From the NCBI GenBank assembly GCA_009760855.2, contig WPIO01000021.1, positions 4,713,501-4,777,500 of the forward strand: a DNA stretch of 64,000 nucleotides, written 5' to 3'. This stretch comes from Cristatella mucedo (Eukaryota; Bryozoa; Phylactolaemata; Cristatellidae). Below the pieces are notes generated by a model. The model had not been told where the DNA came from. It made no database searches and saw only the letters and a program-made list of their open reading frames with translations. The position numbers and the translations under genes are program-made. Below, piece after piece: positions 4,888 through 64,000 of the stretch; position 1 is the stretch's first letter, and every line of letters begins with the position of its first letter.

Positions 4888-5413
4888 ATGCTGATGGCTG
4901 AGACGGACGTCGCCGAAGGTGCTGAGCCCAGGCTGCTGCCTTACATAGGAAAGGTGGAGGTTGCAAAGAAAGTCCATATTTACGCGAACGGTGACAAGTT
5001 CTTTGCGGGAAGGAACTTCGTCTTGAATCGCCGACAACTGAGGAGCTTCGACGCGTTCCTCAATCAGGTTACATCGGCACTGAAGCCCAATTTCGGCGCT
5101 GTAAGAACAATCAGGACACCGAATCAAGGTCATAGGGTCGATGACCTAGCCGCGCTGGAAAGCGGCAAGTCGTATGTGGCTAGCGGCCAAGAGAAGTTTG
5201 TCAAGCTCGGGTAAGACGCTTGACCGCTAATGGCTAGCACAAGCACCCGGTGAGATTAAAGAAACAGGCGCTTCCGGGAATCGCAAGTTCAGTTAGATAG
5301 GCATTGTAAAGCTACAGCCAGAAACGACAGGGTCTGGTTTTAACAGGTATGATCAGATCGCTACGTCAGTGCAGAAGTCCGGCAACGCAGGTCAAGCACT
5401 GTCGCCAAGAGAG
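4888..5413 (+). CDS. DCDC2: DCDC2 exons 1–2: first doublecortin domain
   Basis: Exon 1 (4888–5210) encodes a short acidic leader, then a full DCX domain: [11 protein letters not shown] opens it, [11 protein letters not shown] sits in the middle, and [17 protein letters not shown] closes it. These are the β-grasp hallmarks of the family (NGD, FGAVR, YVA.G.E.F). The donor is GTAAGA at 5211, phase 2. Exon 2 (5347–5413, 67 nt) supplies GYDQI straight after KLG, exactly where DCX domains normally continue, and ends phase 0 before GTGAGG. The 67-nt length makes the phase change needed to join exon 3, which is independent support for this tiny exon. The open frame extends upstream of ATG 4888 to a stop at 4831, so the 5′ UTR or another exon could lie just upstream. 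Confidence 0.85.
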
Positions 5414-8400
5414 GTGAGGGCTAGGCATCTTCATAGGCTCAGCTCAGCTTAATTCCATCTGCAAGATTGCGTTGCGTATGCGAGCTCCCCCCCCCCTGAG
5501 TGCTACTGTCATCTGGAGTGAATTTAGTTGGCCTCGTGTCGGCAGTGAGACATCGCTACCATCATCATCTTCCTCTCTCTCTCTCTCTCTCCCCATCTCG
5601 TGTTGCCTGGATAGTGCTTCTAGGTGCATCATTTTTCTACATTACAGAGGACCAGTCCCGGTAGTTATAAAATGCATTCGTACAGTCTTTCCCCGATCTC
5701 CCCGAGTTCGCGTTTGGACATTCTCTGGAATGGGTCATCGCTCAGTAGATGGCAAAGGGATGTTGCCCCTTGGTCTTTTGCGTGGAGGTCCTCAGGTGCT
5801 CGCTCTTCACGAACCAGGTTGGGTTTTAGTGCTGCAGTGGGTGAGTCTTAATTGCCCACTGCAAGTGGTGGTGATAGCCGTGGAGGCTCTTCTGCTGCTA
5901 TACAAACGAGCCTATTAAATAAGCTCAGCTTTACTTTAAGTTTATCTCACTTTTCATAATTCTCGCGATTTCATTTGCATACTCTGTAATGGTATTTTCT
6001 GATTCGGACTAACGGCAAACCTCGATGGTGCCGCCACGCCCGTAGCATGACTATACTCTTCAGGTGGATACGCTAGAAGCACCAGCATTGTGCCGGCTCA
6101 TATATAGCACTCAACGCCTCGGCCGGAGCATGCACGTGGTTATCGTCATCGGCCCGGCAAGCAAAGTCTTGCTACATGCAGCCTTTAGTCGGTTAGTCAG
6201 TGGTAGCACGGCTGTTGACTTGTTGCTAGGGCTATGCTCTCGGGCTGCCACTGCTCGCGTAACCTGAGACGAGCGAGCGAGGCTGGCTGGGTGGCTTCTG
6301 GTCGGCCGACTTCTGGTCGGCCATCGGGTCAGTCATGCTACCCTGGAGCTCCGGAGTGAGCTCGGAGGATCAATGCTGAATAATGCTTTCTCGATGCCTC
6401 TTGCTGTCGCCTAAAGTACGTCGTCGGTTCTTCCATCGGCTACGAGTGTGCTGTATGAATAGATCCAGCCGACCAATGCAAATAGGCCAATAACGGACCA
6501 ATAACGTGTATGTTGTTGCATAGGACGTCAATCTGGCCATTTAGCTATTTCGCGAACGCAAAGGCAAGAATAGGAAAGGCCAGTTAACGATCGCTGACTC
6601 GACTTTTGCCATAAAGACACGGTCTGTAGAGCTTTGCGTGCTTTGGGGACCACTACTTTTGCCAGCACCACCGCACGCACTATCTGCCTTGCTTATGCTT
6701 AGTCACTATCCGTACGCTCTGCACACACCTCAGGGCTTGGGCTCGCGATCTTGGTCGTTAAAGACAACCATATTACCTCTGGACAAAACCAGGGCGTCGC
6801 CTTGTTTTTGCACGAAAAGGTTTGCTCTTCTGATGAACTTGCTTCAGCGTGCACTTCTATCTCCGCTTATAACGATAAGAATCGCCTCTGCCAGCACATC
6901 CCCTGTTGAATCTGCACGTAATCTAGGTGTCCTGTTCCGAAGTGACCTTTTATTAGATGACCGCATCAGCTCCACTGTCAAGTCTTCCTACTTTTAGCTA
7001 CACAACATTGCCAAAATTTGGGCTTGCTTAGTTAGACAGGGATACTATATCCAAATTGGTCGATGCATTTGTAAGATCCCACCACAACTTCTGGAGCTCA
7101 GTTCTTGCTGGTCTCCCTGTGTGTGAAATCAGGGGCTTAAAGTTGGTGCAAAGCTCTGCAGCTAGGCTCGTCTGTCAGGAGCATCGCAATTGCCACATCA
7201 CACCACTTCTCGCCGACCTGCACTGGCTCCCAATCAAGCAGCCCATCGACTTCAAGGTTCTGCCACTTACTTTTAGGTCCATTTTTTTGGCTCCAGCCCA
7301 CCTGTCAGAACTAATCCCCACCGGACAAAGAACCGTAAAACCTACTGCTCTGACTCGATCGTCTAGCCATATCTCGTACAAATCTCGTACGAATCTCAAA
7401 CCATTGGAGACCGCGCCTTTAGTTTCAATGCTCCCAAAGCCTGGAACTCACTACCAACGCACGTCACAACGTCCCCTGACATGACGACATTTAAAAAGAA
7501 ACTTAAAACGCACCTGTTTATTACAGCATTTGGTGGGTCTTTGTGATTCATTCTTCGTTTGCATATACCTGTTCGTTCTTCGTTTGCATATACCTGCTTA
7601 CACTATTCCTGCTGATTGCGGATGTTACAGCTAATCATTTGGTAATGCTCGCTGTATAGCATCTGTAAAGTGCCTAGAAAGAGATTCAGTTTTCTGAGGG
7701 CGCTATACAAATGTGTTTTTATTATTGTTCACAGGGAAAAGCAAGTAGCAGTAATAACACAGCTAACATGTAGGTCATATTTGTTGCACTATCCATTAAT
7801 TGAGACTCATAGAGTGACGAGCCTGAATTGGCAGACGTTGCTCACTTATAGTTCATTTTTTTAAGCACCCGAAGAAAACTTAATTTGTATCCATGTGGCT
7901 TACATGTGCCACAAGGCTCGAGCCCACGACGGTTGCTCAATCAAGTGCATTATTATTATTGCTCTGCCTAGTACACAGTAGAGGCTGCTTTCTGGCTGGG
8001 CCATCCCAGTGCAGCCATGCTTGATATGCTCTTTCCAATCGCCTAAGCACAAGCACACTCCACCCTCAAAGGAGTCAGGCGACGTGACGAGCCCGAAAGC
8101 ACACCCGAGCCGCATCTGCCGTTTCGCTCTTTACCAGGCATGCACGGACATGCCTAGGACTTTGAGCTGTCGTTAGGCAACCGTGCTCGAGGCTGCCCGG
8201 CAACCTGCTCAGGTGACACTGAAGAAATACGAGCACAGCAGATCGCTTGCGCCATTAAGTAAAGTGAAAACGTCATGGCAAGATGGCCGACATACTACTT
8301 GAATAGTTATTTTTCGTATGTGCTTGGTTCTGCCAGACTACAGAATAGGATGGTGGAGTGCTGAACGATGGAATGCTTTCAAACGAACGGGGGGGGGCTA

Positions 8401-8418
8401 AAAATACTACTGGCTGAG

Positions 8419-8516
<98 letters not shown>

Positions 8517-8914
8517 TTAGTAGTGGCTAAACTGATGCTGCTGCCTCTTTTTACTTGTAGTCAGTCCTTAAAAGAAAAATCCAGGTGTCTGGACGCATCA
8601 AGAAGATTAAGCTCGAGCCGATCGCCGTCTAGTGAGTGTTGGCTCTGGCCTCTGCTCTTCGCGATTGGCTTCCGAGCGGTCGCTCGCCTGCCGCTGGCTG
8701 CGCGGCGGCGCCTCGAGCTGGGGCAGGAGCGCCGCCTGCGGCAGGCGCGAGATGCTCGCTCGCTCGGATCGGTTGCAGTGTCTATCCTAACGGCGAGAGC
8801 CGCGAGCCGCCCAAGCGTCTGCTCGTCCAGCCGTGGATCGTGCGCGGCGACTGGCAGGCCGTGCTCGCCCTGGTGAACGAGAAAGTGAAGCTGTCGGGCG
8901 CCGTGAGAAGGTGA

Positions 8915-9008
<94 letters not shown>

Positions 9009-10854
9009 TTTTTTATTTGGCTGCCGAAACTTGCTCTGGGAAAATGTGTGACTTTGTCACCGACCGCCGACAGTTGTTGGCTGTCGGACTGACTAACCTG
9101 TGATCTTTCGGAGCCTATCGTTGGCAATGCATATCTGAGGGCCACTGCCGCCGCCTCGGGCGGCTTCTAACAGGCAGGCTCTGTTATTATTTTCTTGCCT
9201 GCTGCCCGGCCGAAGCTTGCTGCAAGGTGCAGCTTAGCTTCAGGGAAGCTTTGGTAAAAGCAGGGGCCGCCTGAAGCCTGAAGTCCGGCCGTGCGCATTG
9301 ATGACGCTGCTACATTTTTATCCTTGCAGGCTCTTCGAGTTGGACAGCAAGCAAGAGGTTAGCAGCTTAAAGGAGCTGAAGAACGAGGGATCCTACGTGG
9401 CCGCAGCAAATGAAAAGTTCAAGGATGCCCAATATGGGGTCTCGTACAACGGTCTGTCTCCAAGTCTGCAACAGAAGCGGTACGGATTACTCTCTGCGAA
9501 ACCAGCTGTTATCGCATCCATATACAATAATAATAATAATGGCAGTAGTAGGAATAATAACAATAATCTTAACTGAGGTGTAAGAAGCTATAATGATCAG
9601 CTTGTGTGCTGATTAGAAACGCCCACCAATTAGAAAACTAGTAGAGCTGCATTACTACGCACGTCTACAAGAAGTGGAGTAGCCAGAGAAATTGCACTGG
9701 GAGACTGCTTCCCACATTCTTAGCGAGTGCTAACTCTGTGACATCATACAGCGGTCATTTCACAAGCAAGTGAACAGAACTCGTGACGCTCAAGCAAGCC
9801 CCTTAAGTGGAGAAGGGTTCATCTTACGGAAAACGGAAAAGACAGTGCAGAGGCTACTGCAGAGTGCAGAGGCTACCGCTGCTGCCGCTGTGCCTTCTAG
9901 TAGCTACTGCAAGACTCGCTGCTGCAAGCGAAAAGCAGCAGCGAGTAAAGGTCAACATGATGCTCGGTATCGTTAAAAATTAGGGCGCCTAAACGAGACC
10001 GTGACCTTGCTAACCTGACTGGTCGATGCATTGCCTCCTAAATAGCCGACCGGAGGTTTTCTCTACTGCAAAGCTCTACATACTGAGATTTTCCTTCGCG
10101 ATACATTCCTGATCACCACGCTATGCAAATGTACCTGATAAAATCCAAATTCCAGTGTATAAGCGAACTTTTTCTGAAAGTCGTCAGCTCATTAAGTAAC
10201 ACGTCTTAGTAGCGTATGTCGTCTGTGCAATGTGTGGAAAGCCGAGTAAGCAATATCGATGCAGTAGCAAATGTGTAGTTATTGTTAAACTAAACGGTGA
10301 TATTCAGTAGAATACCCGTTTTCTATAGAATGAGACGGAGAGTGAACTAGTCGAACGACTGAGCGTCCTTATCGATGACCTAGAAAATCGAGCACCGGAT
10401 ACAACGTTATGCGCCATCGTTTTTTGTGACTCATCTCAATTGCTGGAGGAGCGGGGTGCTTTAGTCGATGAGAGAAGACAATTTCGCTAGCTAATTTCTG
10501 TGGAGTCATGAGGTATATTGACGCCCTGTGTTACTACTCTGCATGTTCGCAAAGCTATAACAAAGCTTCGCGGCCTTTAAAAAATGAACGATTTTAACTG
10601 GCCAAGTAAGAAACAATAAGAGTTGACCTACATTGAAATTGTAACTCTTTGCGGAGATTTTCGCAGTAGGTAAAAATTAAATAAGATTAATTAGCAGTTC
10701 AACCTAGATGAGAACACAGTGGGTTGTACAACGAAATAAAGAATGCATCGGGGGTACATCATATATTTCGTTTGCGTGTTCGAGACAGCATGTATATTGT
10801 ATTTGAGTGCATATGTGATGTACATACCGTACATCATCTATATGTTTACCTGCA

Positions 10855-10941
<87 letters not shown>

Positions 10942-12973
10942 ATGCATGTGTGTGTGTGTGTATGCATATAAACAGTACGTGCATACAATATATTCAGGAT
11001 TTATATCATTCGCGTATATCTTTGTATACAGAGGATTTTTAACTATTTCTATGAAAATACATTTGCACATACAAATTATATGTGCCGGTAAAATGTGCAG
11101 AGACGAATTGAAATGGCAATAGCATTGCAGGTAACAAGCTGATTCTGCAGCCTCATTTATATAGGGGTAGAAGAGCAATAATAGCTACTGTAGAGATCGA
11201 ACCCACGACCGACGTTTGCGAGGAGTGAGCAGCTCACCTCTGCGATAAGACAAAAATGAATGGTTCCAACCGGATAGGAGTGCTTCTTAGATCGGTGCAC
11301 CAGTGATAACTGATCATCGGGCTCGTGTTTAGCGTTTCCAGACTATACATAGTCAAGAACAATTTCTTCGAAAATCAGCAGTATTCTCGACATTTATTTT
11401 ATCCAATAGAATGGCAAGTGATGGTGGCCAATGGCAGCGAATGTCCCTTCGCCAGGTCGCCAAGTTTAGCTCTTTTTTGCTGAAAAAATGGTTCAATCGG
11501 TAATAGTAAGAGCCTCTAGTTTCCTCCCGAAAACTGTACCATATACTAGCCGTTCCTTCTCGAGCTATATCACCTTATTGCGGCGCCCAGCCCTTTAAAT
11601 CTTCTGACTGATTGTTACGCTACGTTGTTTTCTGCGTTCTCTTATGGGTGTAATAATGTGCAATAATGTGCTGTGCAATAGTGACCAATGGCAGTGATAA
11701 CTGGAAATCAATCTCAGCACTATTCATGAGGGTTCGGATCATGCAACGACAATGATATTGTTGGTATATTGATACGATGGTATGTTGTTAATGGTGGTGT
11801 TGCTTTTTTTAATTTTTAATTTCGTATTCAGCCTATACAATTGAATTTTCGTCCATCTGTACGTGCATTCGTCCATTACAAAGAAGAATCTTCAACTAAC
11901 TATTAACTTCAAAAGACTTAATAATCGTAAGACTTCACGTAATCGGATTGCTCGTGGAACTATTCAATTTGGCCGGCGAATGGCATCACTGAGAGGGTGC
12001 CGGTGGGGTCCGGAGAGAAATCGGTTGCTCTGCAGAGAGGAGGGGTGCGGGCTGAGGCGCATGAGGAGGAGGGGGAAGCAGCTCGTCTATAAGCTTCCTA
12101 CCCACTTCAATCTCGACGGGCTCGATGCGCTGGTTATATAAATACAAGTGCCGTCAAAATGTTTAAGCAAGTGCCAGAAAAGCGGCAACTCTGCCGATTA
12201 AGACCTTTTCCGATGAAAGTGACTTCATATCTATTCCTCATTTTTTATGCGTGCAAAACGAAGCAGTTCCCACTGCATGCAAGAGCAGGATAAGAAAATA
12301 TTCTTCAAGAAATAACTTCCTAAAGTGTGAAAAAACGTGAAACGATAGCGTTTGCGTAGGCGGACATGGCTGCCGCAAGTATCAAAAGCTAAAGTGCTTC
12401 TGTTTGCCAAGCGTTATTTCAAGAGAGCCAGTTTAGATTTCAAAAGAACTTCAGCAGGAAGCAGCTTCAAGCTTCCGATTGCCGCCAACTTTGGAGGCGG
12501 CAGAGAGTAGCTAACAAGCTTGCTGGGCAAAGTAACAATGGGAATGCAATGCCTCCATGAAATGACGAATTTGGCGACTGCATTTTGTAGGCTACAATAA
12601 GATACGAATTGCATGAGAGATTTTTTATTTCAGAACAATTTTTTTGCAATAATATTTCAGAAGCAGTTGCAGCTCGGTATGCTGGAAATTAGGAAGTACT
12701 ATGGTTGCCCTTAGCTGAAAAACAAGCGATATGACAGGGCGACATACGAACGCGAGCTTTTAAAGAACGGATTTGCTCCTGCAAAAAATGCTTCTAGGAC
12801 ACCAACTTATAGCCGGGCCTAAGCTGAGCGACCAAGCCTCACCGAGTGGAGGTTACGCTAGCAGCATGTAACGCAAGTCGAGAGAGTACGTGGTGCTATG
12901 CCTCAACCACTCAATTTAAAATCAGGTCACACACAAGTGCACACGAATATACTCGTTCCCCAGAAGTACTCAA

Positions 12974-13061
<88 letters not shown>

Positions 13062-14270
13062 GCTCTCACTCGCTCTCACTCACTCTCTTCCTCCCTTCCT
13101 CTCTCTCTCCCCCTCACTTCCCTTCGCTTCCTCTCTCCCTCGCTCTCTCCCTCTCTTTCTCTCTCTCTCCCTTCCTCTCTCTCTCTCTCTCCCTTGCTCT
13201 CTTCCGCCCTCCCCCTCTCCCCCCTCTCTCTCTCCTTCTCTCCCCTCTCTCTCCTTCGCTCTTCCTCTCTCACGGAGCACCTCAAGAGGGGCCTCTAATT
13301 TGAGGCCCCGTGTTTAAGCTGACGAGAAATGGCTCCGGATTTATGTACAAGGACCCTGGCCGACCCGCATACAGCAATTGCTAAGCAAAATCATGCTGGA
13401 GCCACTGCCTACTCGCCTCGGTCAGTTGTTAATTAAATCCTGAAGCGTAGCGTGTTTCTCTGAATCGCCGCGGCCGTATGAGTGCGTAAGTATTGCACTC
13501 TGAAAGTGGGACGCGGGACGCTGAATTACCAGAGAAAGCAGCAGCAGCGACGGACTCTCTGCTCTCCTAGCGAGGCAGGTTGCTTAAGCTTACGACGGCA
13601 CCTGTTTATCGTAGATGCTCGAGCTGACGTATACTCATAATGGACGCAAACGTACTCTCGACGTTTGGACTTGTTCTTCTGCTGATGCTCTTAGTTGAGG
13701 CTCTAGCGAGCCGCCGCTGCGAAAGCCGCTCTTTCGCCGAGTTTGAAGAAGGGAGCCTTTGCGATTGGTCGCAAACGGCGCGAACCGGCGAGGTCGACTC
13801 CTCGCGAACACTGTCTGTCGCCGAGAACGTGGGGGATAGGGGCAGTGTACTGGCTGTTCGTCATGCGCCGCCAGAGGGCGTGCCAGTACTAGCGCTCGAT
13901 TCTCGTGTGCGCGGTTTCCTATAATAATAATAATAATAATGCACTTGATAAAGCATCCTCAGAGGACTTGAGTTTTGCGCCATCTGTAATCGCCTGATTG
14001 CACATGCCGGTAGGCCAGCAAGCAGGGAGTTACAGAAGTCAAGACGGGATGGTCACAAATGCATGGACCAACTTAGATGTGGTATCCTTATCTAAACAAG
14101 CCCGAATTTTAGCAATGTTATGAAGCTAAAAATAGGCAGACTTGACTGTGGAGCTGATATGGTCGTCTAACGAGAGGTCGCTTTGGAACATGACTCCTAG
14201 ATTTCGAGCTGATTCAACAAGAGATATGCTTGCAGAGCCAATTTGAGCATCAGTCTTTCCAATTTAGTGA

Positions 14271-14350
<80 letters not shown>

Positions 14351-17300
14351 TAATAAGCTGTGGTTAATAATCCTACAATTACTAATGGTTATTATCTATA
14401 GTCCGCATAGAAGTGAAAGCCTAGATTGTGCTTGGCAATCACATCAGCAAGAGGGAGAGTATAAACCGTGAAAAGAACCGGACCTAGCACGGAGCCCTGA
14501 GGTACCCCATATTTCAGAGGTACCTCGGAGCATCTTTGTCCATTCACGTCAATACTCTAGAGTCTGCCACTGAGATAGGACCTGAACCGTCGGCTGGCGT
14601 TGTTCGAGTCCCGCATGCGGAATGTGCACTCTGCCGGCCTCGTCGATGCGCACGTGCCCTCGGAATTCGGAGCGAGCGGCTCGACCGTTGGCGTTAGAGC
14701 GCAGCGATGCAGCGGCAGGTGCTGGTCGCCGCGCCTGGAGGTCAGGGTCATTGCCAGCTAGTCGGCGCTCTCTGCGTTGCAGGCGCTACCCGCAATTGGC
14801 GCCGCTCAAGAAGAAGTCTCCGCACGCGAGTAGCAGTGACATTGCGACGTCAGCTGCGGCCTCTACAGTTTTGACCAATAACGTGCACAGCGACAGCAGC
14901 ACCTCGTCCAGCGATGCGGCAAAGATGGGCGCCGACGCATCCGGCCGCGGGAGCCCGGAGGCATCCGCTTCGAAGTGAGCTGACGCACGCGGGGCGCGGC
15001 CGGCGATTGGCGCGTCGGCGGTGGCGTGCGCCCGAAGCGATTCGTGCGAGGCAGCGACGAGTCGGCGCTCCGCCGCCGCCGCTGCTGCTACTTACTGATA
15101 CAATGTCTCTGCAGGCCCCATCCTCCGGTCGTACCGCGGAAGCAGCACGCGGCCAACGAGTCGTCGCCGCCTGTCGTCCGGAATAAGGGCGGCATACCCG
15201 TGAGGCCGCTGAAGCACAAGAGGGAGCTAGTGAAGGACAAGGTCATAGACCTCGATAAAGGTAAACGGTTTGCCGCGAGCTAGCCCGTTGACGAAAAGGA
15301 GTAACGCTGCGACGTGAGCCGTACGACGGTCGCTTCGCTGTTTCAGACGAAGGCGGGCTGTACAAAGCTAAGAATGCCAGCTCTGGTGAAGCGGACACTG
15401 TGGACGATACTGGTGCTAAGACAGAGGTTCCTGTTGATGAACAGAAAGCCGAGGAGGTAGACGAGGTAAGATTGACAACGCAATGCGACGCTTGGGTAGG
15501 CTAGCAGACGCCCGCCCCCTCTTTTCCGGCAAAGCCGCTACGGCGCTGCTGCGGCGGCGGCAACGACTTGGGGCAACTCCGCCGATGCCGAAGCTGTGGA
15601 TAGCGGGCGCGGCGCGGCGCTTTGGGTCGGGCTCTGAGTCGCGGTCCGAGTTGGTCTCGACCGAAGCGGCCGCGTTCGACGACTACTTAACCGGCCGCCG
15701 TGCATAACCTCGCAAGACGGGACTATCGGCGAAAGACCGTCTACTTTTTTAAACAAGAATTTTGAGCTATTGAAAAGACAAAGTCGCAACGCTAATCGTT
15801 TGACCCTATTAAAACCTATTTTAAGTTGCGTACGAGCCAGCCAATTGAAAATGATTCATAGTTAGAACGCGGGATGTCGCTCGTCGCCCACATTAGGGCG
15901 AGTCGAGATAGGCAAGGCCGGGCCCTTGTTAATATTGGCGGTCTCTGTAAGCGATACAGTCTACAAATAATAATAAGTGTCTTACACAGCACCTTAAGAG
16001 AAGCTTATCTGCTGCTTGTCGGCGGTGTTGCACCCTGGGTCGTATGTGCTCGCTCTTGTCCGGGTCGCGGATTTGAGAGGTGCAGTAGCAGACGATTCTT
16101 TATTGCTCACAGCAAGCGGGAATCGATGGCGGCTCTTCTACCCCTAAATAAATCGTGAGGCCGACGACTCGGCTTACCGTCGGCGAGGCTGGCGATAACC
16201 GGGCGACCGCCGCGGGCGGTGCGCGACCTGATCCGACCGCGACGCTCGTCGGCTCAGACGAGGAGCGCCCTCCATCTTCAAAGTGCGCGTGCTCGCGAGC
16301 GCCGGCTGCTTCGCAGAGCGGCCAGACCCGGCGGCGGCGGCGGGCGGGAGTGAGAGGTGGACGGCGGCCATGTCGGGCGTTCGCCGCCGAAGCGTTCGCC
16401 GCCGCGGCGGCCGCCGCGCTCCGCTGAGTGGCTCGTCCGTGCGGTAGGATCCCCGCGAGGCGCGGCGGGAGCGACTGCGTCGCCGACGCGAGAGGCTGAG
16501 GAGAAAGCGAGCGGCGGCGGCCGCCGCCGCCGCTCGCGCGGTCCTGCTGAGCTCGGCGGCCTCGAGGATACAGGCCGCCGCGCGCGCGTTCCTGAGAGGG
16601 CGCGCGGAGGCGAAGAGAGCGCGCGCCGCCAGGATCCAGGCGAAGCTGGAAAGCGCCAGGCGCACGGCGGCCGCCGTGCAGATACAGGCCGCCTATCGGG
16701 GCCACAGGACGCGCGAAGCGCTGCGCGACCGGCGGCGGCGCGAGGCTGCCTCGCAGCAGGCCGCCGCCGCCGTCGAAGCCGCCGCCGCCGCGGTGAAGAT
16801 TCAGGCGGCCTACCGGGGCCACAGGGCCCGAGTCGCCGTGCGGCCGCAGCTTGAGGAGCAAAGGCAGCGGAGGAGGAAGGAGGGGGACGAGCGGAAGGCG
16901 GCCGTCAAAATCCAGGCGGCGTACCGCGGCCACCAAACTCGCGCCAAGCTGCGCGAAGCGGTCGCGGAGCGGCAGCGGACCACCGCTGCCGCTGCCGCTG
17001 CGGCCTTGGAGGCGGCGGCGGCGGCGGCGACCAAGATACAGGCCGTCTATCGTGGGCATCGGTCGCGTCGGCTGGCCGGCGAAATGCGGCGACGCGAGGC
17101 CGGCCAACGGACGGCGGCCGTCAAAATCCAGGCGGCGTTCCGCGGTCACCGAGCTCGCGGCGAGCTGCGGGAAGCGGTCGCGGAGCGGCGGCGGACCACC
17201 GCTGCGGCGGCGGCGACCAAGATTCAGGCCGTCTATCGTGGGCATCGGTCGCGTCGGCTGGCCGGCGAAATGCGGCGACGCGAGGCGAGCGGCAAGCGGA

Positions 17301-17815
17301 CGGCGGCCGTCAAAATCCAGGCGGCGTACCGCGGCCACCGCGAGCGGAGGCGACTGAAAGAGGCGGCTGCCGACAAGTCCAGGACCGCGGCCGCCACGAA
17401 GATACAGGCCGTCTACCGCGGGCATCGGGCGCGCGCGGCGGCGGAGACGCAGCGTCGGGCGCTGGCGCACGCCGTTCGCCGGCACGTCGCCGTCGTGCAG
17501 ATTCAGGGTGCCTACCGCAAGTACCGGTCGCGAAAGGTCAGTCGGGCCGAGCTGGCGGAGCGAAAGCGCCGAGCCGCTGCCGCCACCAAGATACAATCCG
17601 CCTTCCGAGGCCACCGAACGCGCAAGAAGCTGGCTGCCGAGCGAGCGGACGACGGAAGCGTCCACGAAGAGCCCCAGGCCGTCGACCGGCGAGAGGAAGC
17701 GCCGGCCGCCGCGGAGCCGCCGTCGACCGTCGACGGCGGCGACGCGAGCGTTGCGAGCGTCGGCAAGGAAACGGCGAAAGCGGCCGCAGAAAGCGGAGCC
17801 TCGTCTTCGTCGTGA
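4888..17815 (+). CDS. DCDC2: DCDC2-like doublecortin protein with C-terminal IQ array (nine-exon gene model)
   Basis: Seen: exons at 4888–5210, 5347–5413, 8561–8631, 8779–8910, 9330–9479, 14783–14974, 15115–15260, 15347–15465 and 16448–17815, each bounded by GT donors and AG acceptors. The phases run 2,0,2,2,2,2,1,0 without conflict, giving about 855 residues. Two doublecortin (DCX) domains come first, then a Ser/Ala/Lys-rich linker, a short acidic segment ([15 protein letters not shown]) and an IQ array. Family knowledge: DCDC2 proteins bind microtubules through tandem DCX domains and act in primary cilia and the mitotic spindle. The linker lead-in to DCX2 and the acidic tail both resemble vertebrate DCDC2, which argues for this subgroup over DCX/DCLK. 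Start: ATG 4888, with a second in-frame ATG at 4894 in better context. The join to the last exon is the least certain, because its acceptor (16446–16447) has a weak pyrimidine tract and another exon could lie in 15466–16447. Confidence 0.82.
5795..5925 (+). mobile_element. SINE A copy
   Basis: Diverged head, with the conserved body gtgctgcagtgggtgagtc … tagccgtggaggctcttctg … ctatacaaacgagcc. Lies in DCDC2 intron 2. Confidence 0.75.
6868..7725 (+). mobile_element. Family A LINE copy in DCDC2 intron 2
   Basis: RT C-terminal part, thumb and C-terminal block (7056–7484 open), hairpin tail (7665–7715) and short T/ATT run. TAG at 6995–6997. Same strand as the host gene. A 22-bp stretch is duplicated in tandem near 7550–7595. 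Confidence 0.88.
7875..7960 (-). mobile_element. SINE B scrap next to an ATT run
   Basis: A short box B region (ggctcgagcccacgac on the + strand) and part of the tail, followed by gtgcattattattatt from another insertion. Confidence 0.4.
8421..8511 (+). repeat. (GA)n, about 45 units, DCDC2 intron 2
   Basis: Uninterrupted GA ending about 50 bases before exon 3 of the DCDC2-like gene. Confidence 0.97.
8561..9479 (+). CDS. DCDC2: DCDC2 exons 3–5: second doublecortin domain
   Basis: Exon 3 (8561–8631) encodes [20 protein letters not shown], exon 4 (8779–8910) encodes [18 protein letters not shown] and on to KLSGAVR, and exon 5 (9330–9479) encodes LFELDSKQ through [11 protein letters not shown]. 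Joined, they form a DCX domain with the expected order PNGE, LL.., W..VL..V.EK, GAVRRLF and YVAA..EKF. Introns are 147 and 419 nt. If the exon 5 donor at 9480 is not used, the frame runs on to a stop at 9574–9576 and adds an Asn-rich tail translated from an AAT microsatellite, giving a 279-aa two-DCX protein. The long intron before exon 3 holds SINE and LINE copies and a GA tract. A CGG tract begins a few bases after the exon 4 donor. Confidence 0.85.
8915..9001 (+). repeat. (CGG)n, about 29 units, next to a DCDC2 splice donor
   Basis: Uninterrupted CGG/GGC starting just after the exon 4 donor GTGAG (8911). It yields poly-Ala and poly-Arg runs in false ORFs. Confidence 0.97.
9526..9571 (+). 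repeat. Imperfect (AAT)n
   Basis: AAT repeats with one interruption, encoding Asn runs if exon 5 reads through its donor. Confidence 0.85.
10857..10970 (+). repeat. (TA)n–(TG)n microsatellite
   Basis: TA tract followed by TG tract with short interruptions. Confidence 0.97.
11150..11255 (-). mobile_element. tRNA-related SINE fragment, diverged
   Basis: On the − strand, box A-like (atcgcagaggtgagc) and box B-like (gtgggttcgatctc) segments are spaced as in a tRNA, followed by a short SINE A-like body. It does not fold as a clear functional tRNA. Confidence 0.4.
12977..13280 (+). repeat. (CT)n and CT-rich tract
   Basis: Pure CT to about 13057, then a degenerate CT-rich stretch, ending about 360 bases before the MAM ORF. 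Confidence 0.97.
13640..14761 (+). pseudogene. Secreted MAM-domain ORF split by a LINE insertion, inside DCDC2 intron 5
   Basis: ATG 13640 opens a signal peptide ([15 protein letters not shown]), then a MAM-type start with [11 protein letters not shown], and GS.L.V strands. The frame ends at TAA 13922–13924, which is formed by the ATT-repeat tail of a − strand LINE. Beyond the LINE (from about 14591) the same frame continues with [20 protein letters not shown], which fits the next MAM strands (L.F.Y.M.G..VGTL.V), and reaches a stop at 14759–14761. The C-terminal MAM strands are missing. MAM domains are extracellular adhesion modules in receptors and proteases. I infer a small secreted gene or exon that the LINE broke. 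A splice donor at 14719 could give other products. Exon status is unproven. Confidence 0.5.
13921..14590 (-). mobile_element. Family A LINE copy interrupting the MAM ORF
   Basis: The ATT-repeat tail lies at 13921–13941, followed leftward-to-rightward by reversed RT sequence up to about 14588 (…FRSYLSGR). The 3′ UTR and most of the C-terminal coding part are missing through an internal deletion near 13977, and a CA/TA microsatellite (about 14274–14350) interrupts the RT region. A TAG codon lies at 14126–14128 (−), at the same place as in two other copies. No target duplication is clear. Confidence 0.85.
14783..15465 (+). CDS. DCDC2: DCDC2 exons 6–8: linker and acidic segment
   Basis: Exon 6 (14783–14974) is Ser/Ala/Asp-rich, exon 7 (15115–15260) is basic ([12 protein letters not shown]), and exon 8 (15347–15465) is acidic. 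Exon 5 ends in phase 2 and exon 6 starts in the matching phase, so a 5.3-kb intron joins them. The exon 8 stretch EGGLYKAKN through [15 protein letters not shown] resembles the acidic tail of vertebrate DCDC2 closely enough to tie these exons to the doublecortin exons far upstream. No ATG could start this part on its own. The exon 6 acceptor is also in phase with a possible donor at 14719 in the upstream MAM-like ORF; I regard that as coincidence. Confidence 0.7.
16045..16160 (+). mobile_element. SINE A copy in the last DCDC2 intron
   Basis: Diverged copy of the same body (gacgattctttattgctcacagcaagcgg, ggcggctcttct). A family A tail-like scrap precedes it at 15963–16015. Confidence 0.6.
16448..17815 (+). 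CDS. IQ-motif exon (ten canonical IQ motifs), probable last exon of the DCDC2 gene
   Basis: An open frame of 455 codons encodes ten IQ motifs of the form [VT]-[KQ]-I-Q-x-[AV]-[YF]-R-G-H-x-x-R (number nine is [13 protein letters not shown]), with one or two decayed motifs before them. Ala/Arg/Glu helices separate the motifs and a short Ser/Ala/Asp tail ends at TGA 17813–17815. IQ motifs bind calmodulin or calmodulin-like light chains, often without calcium. No ATG lies ahead of the first IQ motif and an in-frame stop (16445–16447) lies just before the proposed acceptor, so this is a downstream exon, not a gene with its own start. Two IQ pairs are nearly identical in DNA about 186 bp apart, a recent internal duplication. 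The exon is extremely GC-rich. The alternative is a separate IQ protein whose 5′ exons are hidden in 15466–16447. Confidence 0.75.
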   Translation, partial: DPREARRERLRRRRERLRRKRAAAAAAAARAVLLSSAASRIQAAARAFLRGRAEAKRARAARIQAKLESARRTAAAVQIQAAYRGHRTREALRDRRRREAASQQAAAAVEAAAAAVKIQAAYRGHRARVAVRPQLEEQRQRRRKEGDERKAAVKIQAAYRGHQTRAKLREAVAERQRTTAAAAAAALEAAAAAATKIQAVYRGHRSRRLAGEMRRREAGQRTAAVKIQAAFRGHRARGELREAVAERRRTTAAAAATKIQAVYRGHRSRRLAGEMRRREASGKRTAAVKIQAAYRGHRERRRLKEAAADKSRTAAATKIQAVYRGHRARAAAETQRRALAHAVRRHVAVVQIQGAYRKYRSRKVSRAELAERKRRAAAATKIQSAFRGHRTRKKLAAERADDGSVHEEPQAVDRREEAPAAAEPPSTVDGGDASVASVGKETAKAAAESGASSSS

Positions 17816-18018
17816 GGATGCGCTGCCTACGTGAGTCTGGCTGCTGGCCGTGCGAGGCCACGCCCAACATACGATGGCGAATTGGCCGAAGGTCCGGCGG
17901 CGTGGTTAGCGAGCTCGGTCCGAGCCATTCGGCGTCCTCCGCTGACTACGTCACCTGAGCTAACCCCCATCCATCCAGCCAGTGCGGCAGAGTGCGGCAC
18001 GAGCCGGTGCAAACAACA

Positions 18019-31589: not shown

Positions 31590-32560
31590 TTGTAATGTAT
31601 GCATGCACGTATCTCCGTTTGCTACTCCACAACGCAGCCGCAGTGATTAGGTGGGCGCTACCCTGAGGCGTTCTCTCTCTTTTTTCAAGTAGCCCTCAGT
31701 AGCCCTTCGATGCTCAGAGTCTGCAGCGCCATTGCAGCATGCTCTAGCGCACACAATGACAACGAGACAGTGAGAAGCATAGCTGAGTCACTAGGGCAGT
31801 TGAGGAAGTAAAAGTAGCGTGGAAGAAGCAGCAGCGGCAATGAAGCGGCGATGAAGCGGCGATGAAGCGGCGATAAAGCGGCGATGAAGCGGCGATGAAG
31901 CGGCGATGAAGCGGCGATGAAGCGGCAATGAAGCGGCGACGAAGCGGCGATGAAGCAGCGATGAAACAGCGATGAAGTGGCAATGAAGTGGCAATGAAGC
32001 GGCAATGAAGCAGCGATGAAGCGGCAATGAAGCAGCAATGAAGCGGCGATGAAGCGGCGATGAAGCGGCGATGAAGCGGCGATGAAGCGGCGATGAAGCG
32101 GCGATGAAGCGGCGATGAAGCGGCGATGAAGCGGCGATGAAGCGGCGATGAAGCGGCGATGAAGCGGCGATGAAGCGGCGATGAAGCGGCGATGAAGCGG
32201 CGATGAAGCGGCGATGAAGCGGCGATGAAGCGGCGATGAAGCGGCGATGAAGCGGCGATGAAGCGGCGATGAAGCGGCGATGAAGCGGCGATGAAGCGGC
32301 GATGAAGCGGCGATGAAGCGGCGAAGAAGCGGCAGAAGGCGGGAGAGCATGCCGTGGCATGCCACAGCCTAGGAGTGCAGAGAAAAACCTTTTGCCATCA
32401 ATAGTATTCAAGCAAAATGAATGGAGCAGTTAACTTATTGTCCATGTACGAGCTGAGGATACAGAGAGGCTGAGGCTGGTGCACAATTCTTGGTAAGAAG
32501 GAGCCGAGCCATGGCGGGCCTTGCGGGCCTTGCGGGCCTTGCGGGTTAGAGTAAGAATTT
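31590..32560 (-). mobile_element. Family B LINE copy expanded by a minisatellite
   Basis: Family B 3′ end (31590–31830) and C-terminal block (32380–32540) flank an 11-bp minisatellite that replaces the sequence between them. Confidence 0.75.
31830..32330 (-). repeat. 11-bp minisatellite, about 45 units
   Basis: Unit gcggcgatgaa. The left third has variant units (gcggcaatgaa, gcagcgatgaa); the right two thirds are nearly uniform. Since 11 is not a multiple of 3, every reading frame repeats each 33 bases (11 residues), and the − strand is open throughout in more than one frame. Confidence 0.95.
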
Positions 32561-50062: not shown

Positions 50063-51172
50063 ATATTAATAATAATAATAATAATAATTCACTTGATAAA
50101 GCGCCCTCGGAGAACTTAATCTCTCTCTAGGCGCTTTACATTTGCTGTAAAGTGAAATGCAATGGTAAGTAAATGGTAATGGTAAATGGTAAGTAAAATC
50201 ATGCTTGAAAAACAAACGAAATGAATAATATGGTTAGGGGTTACATGCACAGGGTCAGCATGGAAATGTTGTTAGTGGCAGCATGCACAGTGTCAGCACG
50301 CATAAGCACATCAATGACGAATCACAGGGACCCACTAAATGCTGTCCTAAATAGGTGTGTTTTCAAGTTCCTTTTAAATGTGGTCAGGTCAGGGCATGTT
50401 CTGACGCAGGTCGGGAGGGAGTTCCAGGCTTTGGAAGCATATGAACTAAATGCACGGTCTCCAAAGGATTTAAGGTTTGTATGAGGTATTTCTAGACCGT
50501 TGGATTCCGAAAAGCGGGTGGTACGATGCTTGGCCTGATGGGGTAGCATATCTGAGAGATAGGCTGGAGCCATGGAATGAAAGGACCTAAAAGTGAGCGA
50601 CAAAACCTTGAAGTCAATCCGTTGCCTCACTGGTAGCCAGTGCAGGTCGGCGAGAAGTGGAGTAATGTGGCAACTGTGACGCTCACGACAGACAAACCTA
50701 GCTGCAGAGTTGTGCACCAGCTGCAATCGCCTGATCGCGAATGCTGGTAGGCCAGTAAGCAGTGAGTTGCAGAAGTCGAGACGGGATGTCACGAATGGAT
50801 GGACCAACTTGGACGTGGTATCTTTATCTAAACAAGCCCGAATTTTAGCAATATTATGAAGCTAAAAATAGGCGGATTTGACTGTAGAGCTGATATGATC
50901 GTCTAACGAGAGGTCGCTTTGGAATATGACGCCTAGATTTCGAGCTGATTTAACTGGAGATATGCTGTCAGAGCCAATTTTGAGAGTTCGCCTTTCCAAT
51001 CTCTGGATCACACTGGGTTTGCCCATAACTAGTAAGTTAGTTTTATCATCGTTAAGTTTTAGAAAATTTGCTGCCATCCATGTGCGGATGTCATCAATAC
51101 ATGCAGCTAGTGAGTTTAGAGAATTTGAGGTGCTCGAAGGCTGGGAGGGATCAAAGCAAAGGTACATTAATG
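50063..51172 (-). mobile_element. Family A LINE copy, 5′-truncated
   Basis: The ATT tail is at 50066–50093, then the hairpin tail and the C-terminal coding region (50322–50807), a TAG at 50862–50864, and more RT (to about 51170) ending at YLCFDPSQPSS. Apart from that stop the frame is open, so this is among the younger copies. It abuts the 3′ end of a + strand LINE. Confidence 0.9.
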
Positions 51173-51534
51173 ACAATTTATATTGTATAGCATCCTAAGC
51201 AAGCGAAACATCTAGTTGGGTGCTTTATAAAATGACTTCAGAAGAGGTAATAACCAAGGGTTGACGACTTGAATGTTGTCACGCTTGGACAAGCGTGACA
51301 AATCGCAGAAGCATCATAATTAGACCAGCATGTAAAGCACACAAGAAGACACCCGAGGCCAACGGTCAGTAGAAATCGCTATTTAGTAACGCGCACAGTG
51401 CGAACCATAGAAACTATGCAAGGTTATTGTGCAGGTGGTGACATATCTAACAAGTGAATTCCTTACTTTCGGTGCATGCGAACTGAAGGGCGACATCACC
51501 AAAAGGTTTCAATCTAGTCGAGCTTCCTCTACGG

Positions 51535-54184: not shown

Positions 54185-55644
54185 TCTTGGCTTTAGAGCT
54201 AATCACTCCACAGAGTCAGCAGAGTCAGTTGCTTAGGGTATACAACAACGTACTTAGGAATGCAGACATGGGTAGAGTGTCTGCTTGTTTTGCTCGATCT
54301 TTTGGCAACTTTTGATGCCATCGATCACAGAGTACTTCTAGAGCGCCTCTCATCTCGCCTGGGCATCACTGGCACTGCTCTGCAGTGGTTCAGGTACGAT
54401 CTCAGTGGCAGACTACACAGTATTGACGTGAATGGACAAAGATCATCTGAAGTACCTCTGAAATATGGGGTACCTCAGGGCTCCGTGCTCAATCCGGTTC
54501 TTTTCACGGTTTATACTCTCCCTCTTGCTGATGTGATCTCCAAGCATAATCTAGGCTTTCACTTCTATGCGGATGACACTCGGTTGTACCTTTGCTTTGA
54601 TCCCTCCCAGCCTTCGAGCACCTCAAATTCTCTCGACTCGCTTGCTGCATGCATTGATGACATCCGCACATGGATGGCAGCAAATTTTATAAAACTAAAC
54701 GATGATACAACTAACTTACTAGTAATGGGCAAACCCAGTGTGATTCAGAAATTGGAAAGGCTGATGCTCACAATTGGCTCTGCCAGCATATCTCCTGTCA
54801 AATCAGCTCGAAATCTAGGTGTCATATTCTAAAGCGACCTTTCGTTAGACGACCATATCAGCTCCATGGTCAAATCTGCCTATTTTCAGCTTCATAATAT
54901 TGCTAAAATTCGGGCTAGTTTAGATAAGGATATCACCTCCAAGTTGGTCCATGCATTCGTTACATCCCGTCTCGACTTCTGCAACTCACTGCTTACTGGC
55001 CTACCAGCATGCGCGATCAGGCGATTGCAGCTGGTGCAAAACTCTGCAGCTAGGCTTGTCTGTCGTGAGCGTCGCAGTTGCCACATTACTCCACTTCTTG
55101 CCGACCTGCACTGGCTACCAGTCAAGCAACGGATTGACTTCAAGATTTTGTCGCTCCCTTTTAGGTCACTTCGTTCTTTGGCTCAAGCCTATATCTCAGA
55201 TATACTCCTCCATCAGGCCAAGCATCGTACCGCCCGCTTTTCGGAATCCAACATTCTACAAATACCTCGTACAAACCTCAAATCCTTTGGAGACCGTGCA
55301 TTTAGTTCGTATGCTCCCAAAGCCTGGAACTCCCTCCCGACCTGCGTCAGAACATCCCCTGACCTGATCACATTTAAAAAGAATTTAAAAACACACCTAT
55401 TTAGGACAGCATTTAGTGGGTCCCTGTGATTCGTCCTTCATGTGCTTATGTGTGCTTACACTGTGCATTCTGCCACTAACTACATTTGCATGATTAACCT
55501 GTGCATGTCACCCCTAGCCATGTTAGTCATTTTGTTGGTTCATCAAGCATGGTATTACTTACCATTCAATTGAATTTCCCTTTGCATCAAATGTAAAGCG
55601 CCTAGAGAGAGAGATTGAGTTCTCTGAGGGCGCTTTATGAAGTG

Positions 55645-61754: not shown

Positions 61755-64000
61755 AGACAGGGGTAATAATAACATAATATTATTATCGATAAATGTATAT
61801 AGCACCTTCAGAGAATTTAATCTGTTTCTAGGCACTTTAAGGATGCTGTAAAGAAAGAATGATCGAATGGTTAGTGGTAGCATGCTCAGTGCCAGCAAGC
61901 CTAGCATGGATAGAGGTGACATGCACAGGGTCAACATGCAAATATGGTTAGTGGCAGCATGCACAGTGTCAGCATGCTTACGCACACAACCAACAAATCA
62001 TAAGGAACCTGCTAAATGCTGTCATAAAAAGGTGCATTTGTGGCTTCTTTTTAAATTTCGTCAGCTCAGGGGATGTTGTGATGTCAGTCGGAAGCGAGTT
62101 CTAGGCTTTGAGAGCGTACGAGCTAAAGGCACGGCCTCCAAAGGATTTGAGGCTCACGCAAGCTATAGCTAACGGATTTGATTCAGAAAAGCAGGTGGTA
62201 CGATGCCTAGTCTATTGGGAGAGTAGGTCTGATATGTAGGCTGGAACCAGAGAATGAAGGGACCTAAAAATGAGTGATATAACCTTGAAGTCGATGCGCT
62301 GCTTGACTGAGAGTCAGTGCAGGTCGGTGAGAAGTGGTGTGATGTGGCAACTGCGATGCTCCTGACAGACGAGCCTAGCTGCAGAGTTTTGCCCAACTAC
62401 ATGTGCATGAGTGAGCACTCTGGTGGACCAGGAAGCAGTTGAGTTGCAGAAGTCGAGACGGGGTGTCACAAATGATTGAACAGATTTAGATGTAGGATCC
62501 CTGTGTAAACAAGCCCAAATTTTGACAATGTTATGTAGCCGAAAGTAGGCAGACTTGACTGTGGAGCTTATGTGGTCGTCAAGTGCAAGCTCATTTTGGA
62601 ATAGGACACCTAGATTTCGTGCATATGCAACAGGAGATTTGCTGTCAGGGCCGATTTTGAGCGTTAATTTTTATAATTTCTGAATCACACTTGGTTTACC
62701 CATAACTAGTAAACTGGTTTTATTGTCATTCAATTTAAGAAAATGTACTGCCAACCTTGTGTGGATGTCATCAATACATGCAGCAGGGGAGTTGAGAGAA
62801 TTTGACATTCTGGATGGATGGTAGTTATCAGAGTAAAGGCACAACTGAGTGTCGTCCGCATAGAAGTGAAAGCCTAGATTGTGCTTGGCAATCAAATCGG
62901 CAAGAGGGTCAGAGTAAACTGAGAAAAGAAGCCGACGAAGCACACACACGGTACTCCAGTGATTCCTCGGATGATCTTTGCCCGTTTGCATCGATGCTCT
63001 GGAGTCTCCCACTGACATAGGACTTGAACCGTTGTAGTGCAGTGCAACAGTGATGTGCAGGCAAAACAAGAGGCTCTCGAAAAAGACCTGGTGATCGGTA
63101 CTACGAATGTGGTCAGATAGGCAGAAGATTTTGTCGAATGTGTGACCCTTGATGTGATAAGGGTCGTCCACATGAGCCACGAGAGAAAATGAGTCAGTCA
63201 GTGCACGAAATTCGGTGAAGAAAGCATGAGATAAGTTATCGCAATGTCAAAATCACTCAATAACGAGGGAAGATCGATTTCTTGCATGCAGAATCGAAAT
63301 GAGATCAAAGAAAACTGGGATAAAGGAAGCTTTGGCACTTGGATGAGATAGACTGCTGCAACCATTGGCAGCTTGTTTTCGGGTGAACTCAAAATACGAG
63401 ATTCGAAAGACTTCTTCTTCGAGGAGACTGAAAATGGCTTGATATTGAGGGTTGGACGTGCGACAATGGCGACTCCGGCACTGACTGCATTGATTGATCC
63501 AGGGCAGAGGTCGGCAAACTCCTGCCTTTTGGCCAATTATGGCCTAGCTATTACTCCCGTCCGGCCTAGCGCCCCTAGTTATTTATCCGGCCTAATTGAA
63601 CTGTCGTGGTTTTTGTTTCCCTTCATTACTAGTGGTTGGAAATCAAGCTGTGACCCGTGTTTATTTCTAGAGCTGATGTCAGGCGCTTGTGTGAAAGAGA
63701 AGCACCTGACCTGGTAGGTGTGATAAATGTCGACCCCTATAATGTGCTGCTGTTTCGCCTGTTTGTTCGTCTGAACACTCTTCACCCCACGGGCCCGGTA
63801 GAGCGGCTGGTTTCTTCTGGCGTAGCGTGCCTTCTTGATCTCCTGAAATGGACTAGTAGTTCGAAAAGTTTTCCGACCGCTGATCTAGGGGTATGAAAGA
63901 TGGATAAGTTTGTCTGGGTGCATCGGTTGTGGTCGGCCTGGTAGCCAATTCCAGCCAGTTCTTGGTCAAGGCGAGCAGTTCGAGGCCGTTTTCAGTAATC
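61755..64000 (-). mobile_element. Family A LINE copy with endonuclease region, internally deleted
   Basis: Tail at about 61755–61850, C-terminal block, then RT with an intact catalytic FYADDTQL (about 62845) up to TDHQVFFESL near 63095. There it joins directly to an AP-endonuclease-type stretch (GHTFDKIF, LELLALTKNWLEL) that runs to the window end, so the RT N-terminus is deleted. A hAT MITE sits at 63505–63882. Confidence 0.8.
63505..63882. mobile_element. hAT-like MITE of a second family
   Basis: The 378-bp element has termini CAGAGGTCGGCAAACT and, read from the right end, CAGCGGTCGGAAAACT (14 of 16 identical). It is flanked by 8-mers atccaggg (63497–63504) and atctaggg (63883–63890), 7 of 8 identical. 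The ends resemble the CAG.GGTCGGCAAACT class of hAT elements. It interrupts the endonuclease region of a − strand LINE. Confidence 0.8.

Follow-up and report, generated by a model that had tools for sequence, protein, structure and literature searches.

The window, a stretch of 64 kb of the Cristatella mucedo genome (C133:4713501-4777500; the genome was searched as 572 Mb in 688 contigs), contains a gene of the DCDC2 type on its plus strand. When its nine exons were joined in phase, they yielded 855 residues that end at a TGA stop and contain no internal stop codon. AG and GT borders are present at all eight introns, and the splice phases are compatible at each of the eight junctions. Two DCX domains, an acidic segment, ten IQ motifs and eight compatible phases had been proposed in a preliminary description of the locus, and all of these were reproduced by exon joining, Pfam searches and motif counting (Table 1).

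Table 1. Features of the DCDC2-type gene, in positions of the window.
Feature	Position	Strand	Remarks
Exon 1	4888..5210	+	Start codon and DCX domain 1 (5020-5199); exit phase 2; Pfam DCX E 6.7e-21
Exon 2	5347..5413	+	Exit phase 0; counterpart exon on C442
Exon 3	8561..8631	+	71 nt, C442 exon equally long; exit phase 2
Exon 4	8779..8910	+	132 nt, C442 exon equally long; DCX domain 2, first part
Exon 5	9330..9479	+	150 nt, C442 exon equally long; DCX domain 2, second part
Exon 6	14783..14974	+	Linker
Exon 7	15115..15260	+	Linker containing PLKHKR and IDLDK; exit phase 1
Exon 8	15347..15465	+	DEGGLYKAK..., acidic segment; exit phase 0, as on C442
Putative intron 8	15466..16447	+	Contains dispersed repeat 16036-16153
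Exon 9 (IQ exon)	16448..17815	+	455 codons and stop; single helix predicted, residues 2-399
Ten-IQ array	16673..17635	+	Delimited by motif pattern count

The joined protein was matched by Pfam to DCX in two stretches arranged in tandem at the N-terminus (E 1.4e-34) and to IQ in five stretches (E 3.2e-40). These were the only domains found at E ≤ 0.001, so that a kinase domain was not detected; p25alpha and motor domains were likewise not found by Pfam, and the NCBIfam search matched no family. Compared with solved structures, DCX domain 2 alone was most similar to human DCDC2 (2dnf) with 48.4 bits, followed by doublecortin with 33.1 and DCLK with 19.7 bits. With both DCX domains as query, doublecortin came first with 68.6 bits and 2dnf, which is a single-domain entry, second with 45.7 bits. 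The acidic EVPVD segment following the DCX domains was seen at both the window and the C442 locus of the C. mucedo genome, and it may resemble human DCDC2. The gene is very probably a member of the DCDC2 family in a new form that carries an IQ tail. A perfect (GGC)29 repeat was observed at 8915-9002, a few bases into the intron following exon 4; it represents an unstable kind of sequence within the intron of a presumed ciliary gene.

The IQ exon was examined with the pattern [FILV]Q...[RK]....[RK], which occurred ten times, while its strict form with G occurred nine times. In 2000 residue shuffles of the exon, the relaxed form was found 0.18 times on average and at most twice, and the strict form 0.0085 times on average and at most once. 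The pattern was absent from the five remaining reading frames of this stretch. Pfam applied to the IQ exon alone gave an IQ match in eight stretches (E 2.9e-43). The isoleucine codons of the ten motifs lie at 16682, 16799, 16910, 17036, 17126, 17222, 17315, 17402, 17501 and 17591, and a degenerate eleventh motif was recognised at about 16568 by eye only. Calmodulin-binding IQ arrays in series on a long helix occur in unconventional myosins and in ASPM. The spacing of 29-42 residues in the window array is wider than that of myosin lever arms (roughly 23-25 residues), and the window protein lacks their motor domain according to Pfam.

Part of the array is the product of a duplication, as a self-alignment over 366 columns showed 77% identity at a shift of 216 bases, which corresponds to two motifs. 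Two pairs of motifs are almost identical, with 1 and 7 differences per 54 bases, respectively. Among the nine strict units, 170, 163 and 360 differences were counted at the first, second and third codon positions, and this third-position excess, taken as a raw count, would be compatible with selection at the protein level. The helix predicted for the IQ exon by AlphaFold2 from the single sequence had a mean pLDDT of 72.7 and a pTM of 0.27, with internal stretches below a pLDDT of 50; if it is real, its length would be about 60 nm at 0.15 nm per residue. The IQ exon had no match among solved structures at E ≤ 0.001, and Foldseek returned no match for the predicted helix in the PDB. Viral contigs scanned with a two-protein alignment gave 248 pattern matches, none of which was confirmed.

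The junction between exon 8 and the IQ exon is the critical point of the gene model. The splice from 15465 to 16448 is one that we infer from the sequence, and it had already been named as the weak spot of the preliminary description, rightly so, given that the acceptor at 16447 scores poorly. With a hand-entered splice-site matrix, the donor of exon 8 was good (6.1), while the acceptor at 16447 reached only -1.8 and rank 9 among the 69 AGs present from 15466 to 16600. Scores from -1.0 to 7.4 were obtained with the same matrix for the remaining seven acceptors of the gene. The acceptor at 16447 has no clear pyrimidine tract; still, it is the best of the ten acceptors that enter the IQ frame in one step. 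The strongest acceptor of intron 8 (score 5.7) would start an exon at 16113 and, as read by eye, lead to twelve residues and then to a TAA overlapping AATAAA. It is part of the dispersed repeat listed in Table 1, which is matched at seven further genomic positions. Because of this repeat and the stop after twelve codons, 16113 is less likely to be the true start of exon 9. A two-step route via a micro-exon at 16317-16349 gave a score sum of -0.6, slightly above the direct route; as this best sum lies within the noise of such a hand-entered matrix, micro-exon routes were not preferred. The IQ ORF is directly preceded by an in-frame TAG, and its first ATG is codon 213 of 455. An independent IQ gene in the window would therefore need an upstream exon of its own. 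This makes it less likely that IQ transcripts begin downstream of 15466, though a start via an unseen 5' exon is conceivable.

A second gene of this type was found on contig C442, minus strand, when the genome was searched with exons 1-8. It has 58% identity to the window gene in exon 1 and consists of eight exons with entry and exit phases identical to those in the window (exit 2,0,2,2,2,2,1,0), and the lengths of exons 3, 4 and 5 are the same at both loci. The search with the IQ exon, in which 48 candidates were scored, reached E ≤ 1 at two places only, namely, the window itself and C442:14017825-14018115 (E 4.9e-5, 47% identity to the window IQ exon). The latter lies about 4.3 kb downstream of the second DCDC2 gene and on the same strand. 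A model with matching phases leads there from exon 8 (phase 0) over a proposed intron of about 3.9 kb to a 170-base exon and then to a 463-base IQ exon. In total, this model comprises thirteen in-phase exons up to the stop and encodes 852 aa with two IQ motifs, and Pfam matched both DCX and IQ in the protein, as it did for the window protein. The exon structure after exon 8 differs between the two copies, and on C442 an ATG in frame with the IQ motifs precedes the proposed acceptor.

Past its IQ exon, the C442 gene seems to continue with exons of 15 and 39 bases to a terminal exon of 167 codons at C442:14016519-14016019. No convincing counterpart of this tail exon was found genome-wide: it matched 12 other places weakly (best E 0.05), none of them on the contig of the window. 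Its matches in a direct comparison with the window appear to be of low complexity or out of frame, the best having an E of 2.6e-4 without composition correction.

The genome contains at least six DCX loci (nine matches among 14 candidates) and at least 104 IQ matches. An IQ match lies nearby at two of the six DCX loci found, namely those of the window and C442. None of the listed IQ matches is located within 1 Mb of the other four; the nearest one is more than 1 Mb away at the loci on C66 and C222, and none is on the same contig at those on C561 and C653. The chance that a random IQ locus falls within 5 kb downstream of a given place on the same strand is roughly 1-3 in 10,000, assuming 30-60 IQ loci, a figure that we estimated from the listed IQ matches. 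Since two unrelated IQ placements directly after a DCDC2 gene are unlikely, it is simpler to assume one fusion event that both genes inherited, and the IQ fusion probably predates the duplication into the window and C442 genes. The claim that a DCDC2-type protein is fused to a ten-motif IQ array thus gained support from the second DCDC2 gene with its identical eight-exon phases and its IQ match downstream on the same strand. Judging from the two loci, the fusion looks old and real and not like a misreading.

The same data were weighed against a pair of neighbouring genes, in which DCDC2 would end with exon 8, or with a short exon 9, and a distinct IQ gene would follow downstream, both co-duplicated or kept together. 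The weak acceptor at 16447 and the stronger upstream acceptor with its quick stop would suit such a pair, as would the long intron proposed after exon 8 on C442 and the upstream ATG of the C442 IQ frame. Conserved neighbours would also look alike, and the exons following exon 8 differ between the copies. However, the window IQ ORF is closed by the TAG just upstream and has its first ATG only at codon 213; the acceptor at 16113, although stronger, sits in a dispersed repeat; and exon 8, which exits in phase 0, can be joined at both loci to an open exon downstream that leads into IQ. Two separate genes are considered improbable. It is somewhat easier to envisage, yet still rather unlikely, that two transcript forms coexist, a short DCDC2 stopping at 16149-16151 and a long form with the IQ array. 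The strength of the 16113 acceptor, which is soon followed by a stop and AATAAA, and the weakness of the one at 16447 favour this, but the alternative acceptor lies inside the repeat matched at seven other places. Coexistence of two forms modifies the fusion explanation and does not contradict it.

The IQ array could also be suspected to be an open frame that arose by chance in repetitive, GC-rich sequence, given that an even longer frame, of 601 aa, lies antisense to it at 16100-17905 (-). ORF length alone is therefore no evidence for the IQ exon. The antisense frame had no Pfam match, though, and is probably a by-product of GC-rich codons. In contrast, the IQ frame combines ten motifs, compared with two at most in any shuffle and zero in the five remaining frames, with its strong Pfam match and a related exon at the C442 locus. 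On the basis of the motif count in relation to the shuffles, a chance product was rejected; it would be an extraordinary coincidence. We are quite confident of a DCDC2-family gene with nine exons, the last of which contributes an alpha-helical rod bearing the ten IQ motifs, so that the product would be a microtubule-anchored calmodulin scaffold.

Other features of the window and the genome were recorded as well. The Rfam and tRNA scans of the 64-kb window gave no hits. Judged by their translations, 54203-55429 (+), 50322-51194 (-) and 62314-63246 (-) are fragments resembling non-LTR retroelements; of four frames scanned with Pfam, one had a reverse transcriptase match (E 5.4e-13) and three had none. 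A minisatellite at 31833-32333 consists of 45 copies of 11 bases with 95% matches and is open in three frames on the minus strand. The best COX1 match was located on C688, an apparent mitochondrial contig of 21 kb, where the gene reads through with TGA as tryptophan and several AGA/AGG codons sit at what we take to be serine positions, a pattern that points to an invertebrate bilaterian. Further COX1 matches at C166:4375626-4376390, C83:2826-3735, C549:2641741-2642010 and C299:634220-634540 are possibly nuclear copies of mitochondrial DNA.

Vertebrate DCDC2 is localised in cilia and binds microtubules (PMC3116825), and RPI-1 of C. elegans has been described as a DCDC2 ortholog (PMC10388106). 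The window protein shares with DCDC2 the two N-terminal DCX domains, the second of which is matched best by 2dnf, but would differ from it in its IQ motifs, which number ten in the window and two in the C442 model. The IQ motif is unmentioned in the consulted sections of the papers on DCDC2 and the DCX superfamily (PMC1550402, PMC10388106, PMC3116825). Tandem DCX domains are also found in DCX, DCLK1 and DCLK2; unlike DCLK, however, the window protein has no Pfam kinase domain, and its DCX domain 2 is less similar to DCX/DCLK. A survey of the DCX superfamily from 2006 lists kinase, ricin, HELP and WD as extra domains, and the terms calmodulin, IQ motif and IQ domain do not occur in its main text (PMC1550402). 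One of the proteins treated there, DCX-EMAP (EMAL_DROME), resembles the window protein in that DCX is combined with extra domains, but the added part consists of HELP and WD domains instead of IQ motifs (PMC1550402). IQ motifs, which are described as calcium-independent binding sites for calmodulin and other EF-hand proteins, are carried by TPPP-like multidomain proteins, and apicortins combine p25alpha with DCX (PMC3498115). IQ and DCX are found in different proteins there (PMC3498115), whereas the window protein would join both, and Pfam found no p25alpha in it. A protein with DCX and IQ was not described in the titles or abstract openings of the literature searched, and animal protein databases may already contain this combination.

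By analogy with the DCX family and with vertebrate DCDC2, the N-terminal DCX tandem would anchor the protein to microtubules, with cilia as the most likely site, while calmodulin or related EF-hand proteins would attach to the C-terminal IQ rod. Ciliary microtubules, in the axoneme or at its base, might thereby be provided with a fixed store of calmodulin or a calmodulin sensor. Microtubule and calmodulin binding, the ciliary location and any calcium response of the window protein are properties that we infer. On a more speculative level, and with the balance somewhat against it, the ancestral animal DCDC2 might have been a microtubule-bound calmodulin scaffold. The vertebrate form would then have lost the IQ tail, and some invertebrates would have kept it, with an expansion here from about two to ten motifs that was partly due to the duplication of a two-motif block.

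In humans, DCDC2 mutations lead to disease of the kidney, the bile ducts and hearing, and knowledge of what the gene does in cilia is still limited (PMC10388106). That a DCDC2 occurring in nature has a calmodulin scaffold built in, as seems to be so at two loci of one genome, suggests a connection to calcium and calmodulin that can be tested. It also offers an evolutionary test, namely which animals retain the IQ tail and which have lost it.
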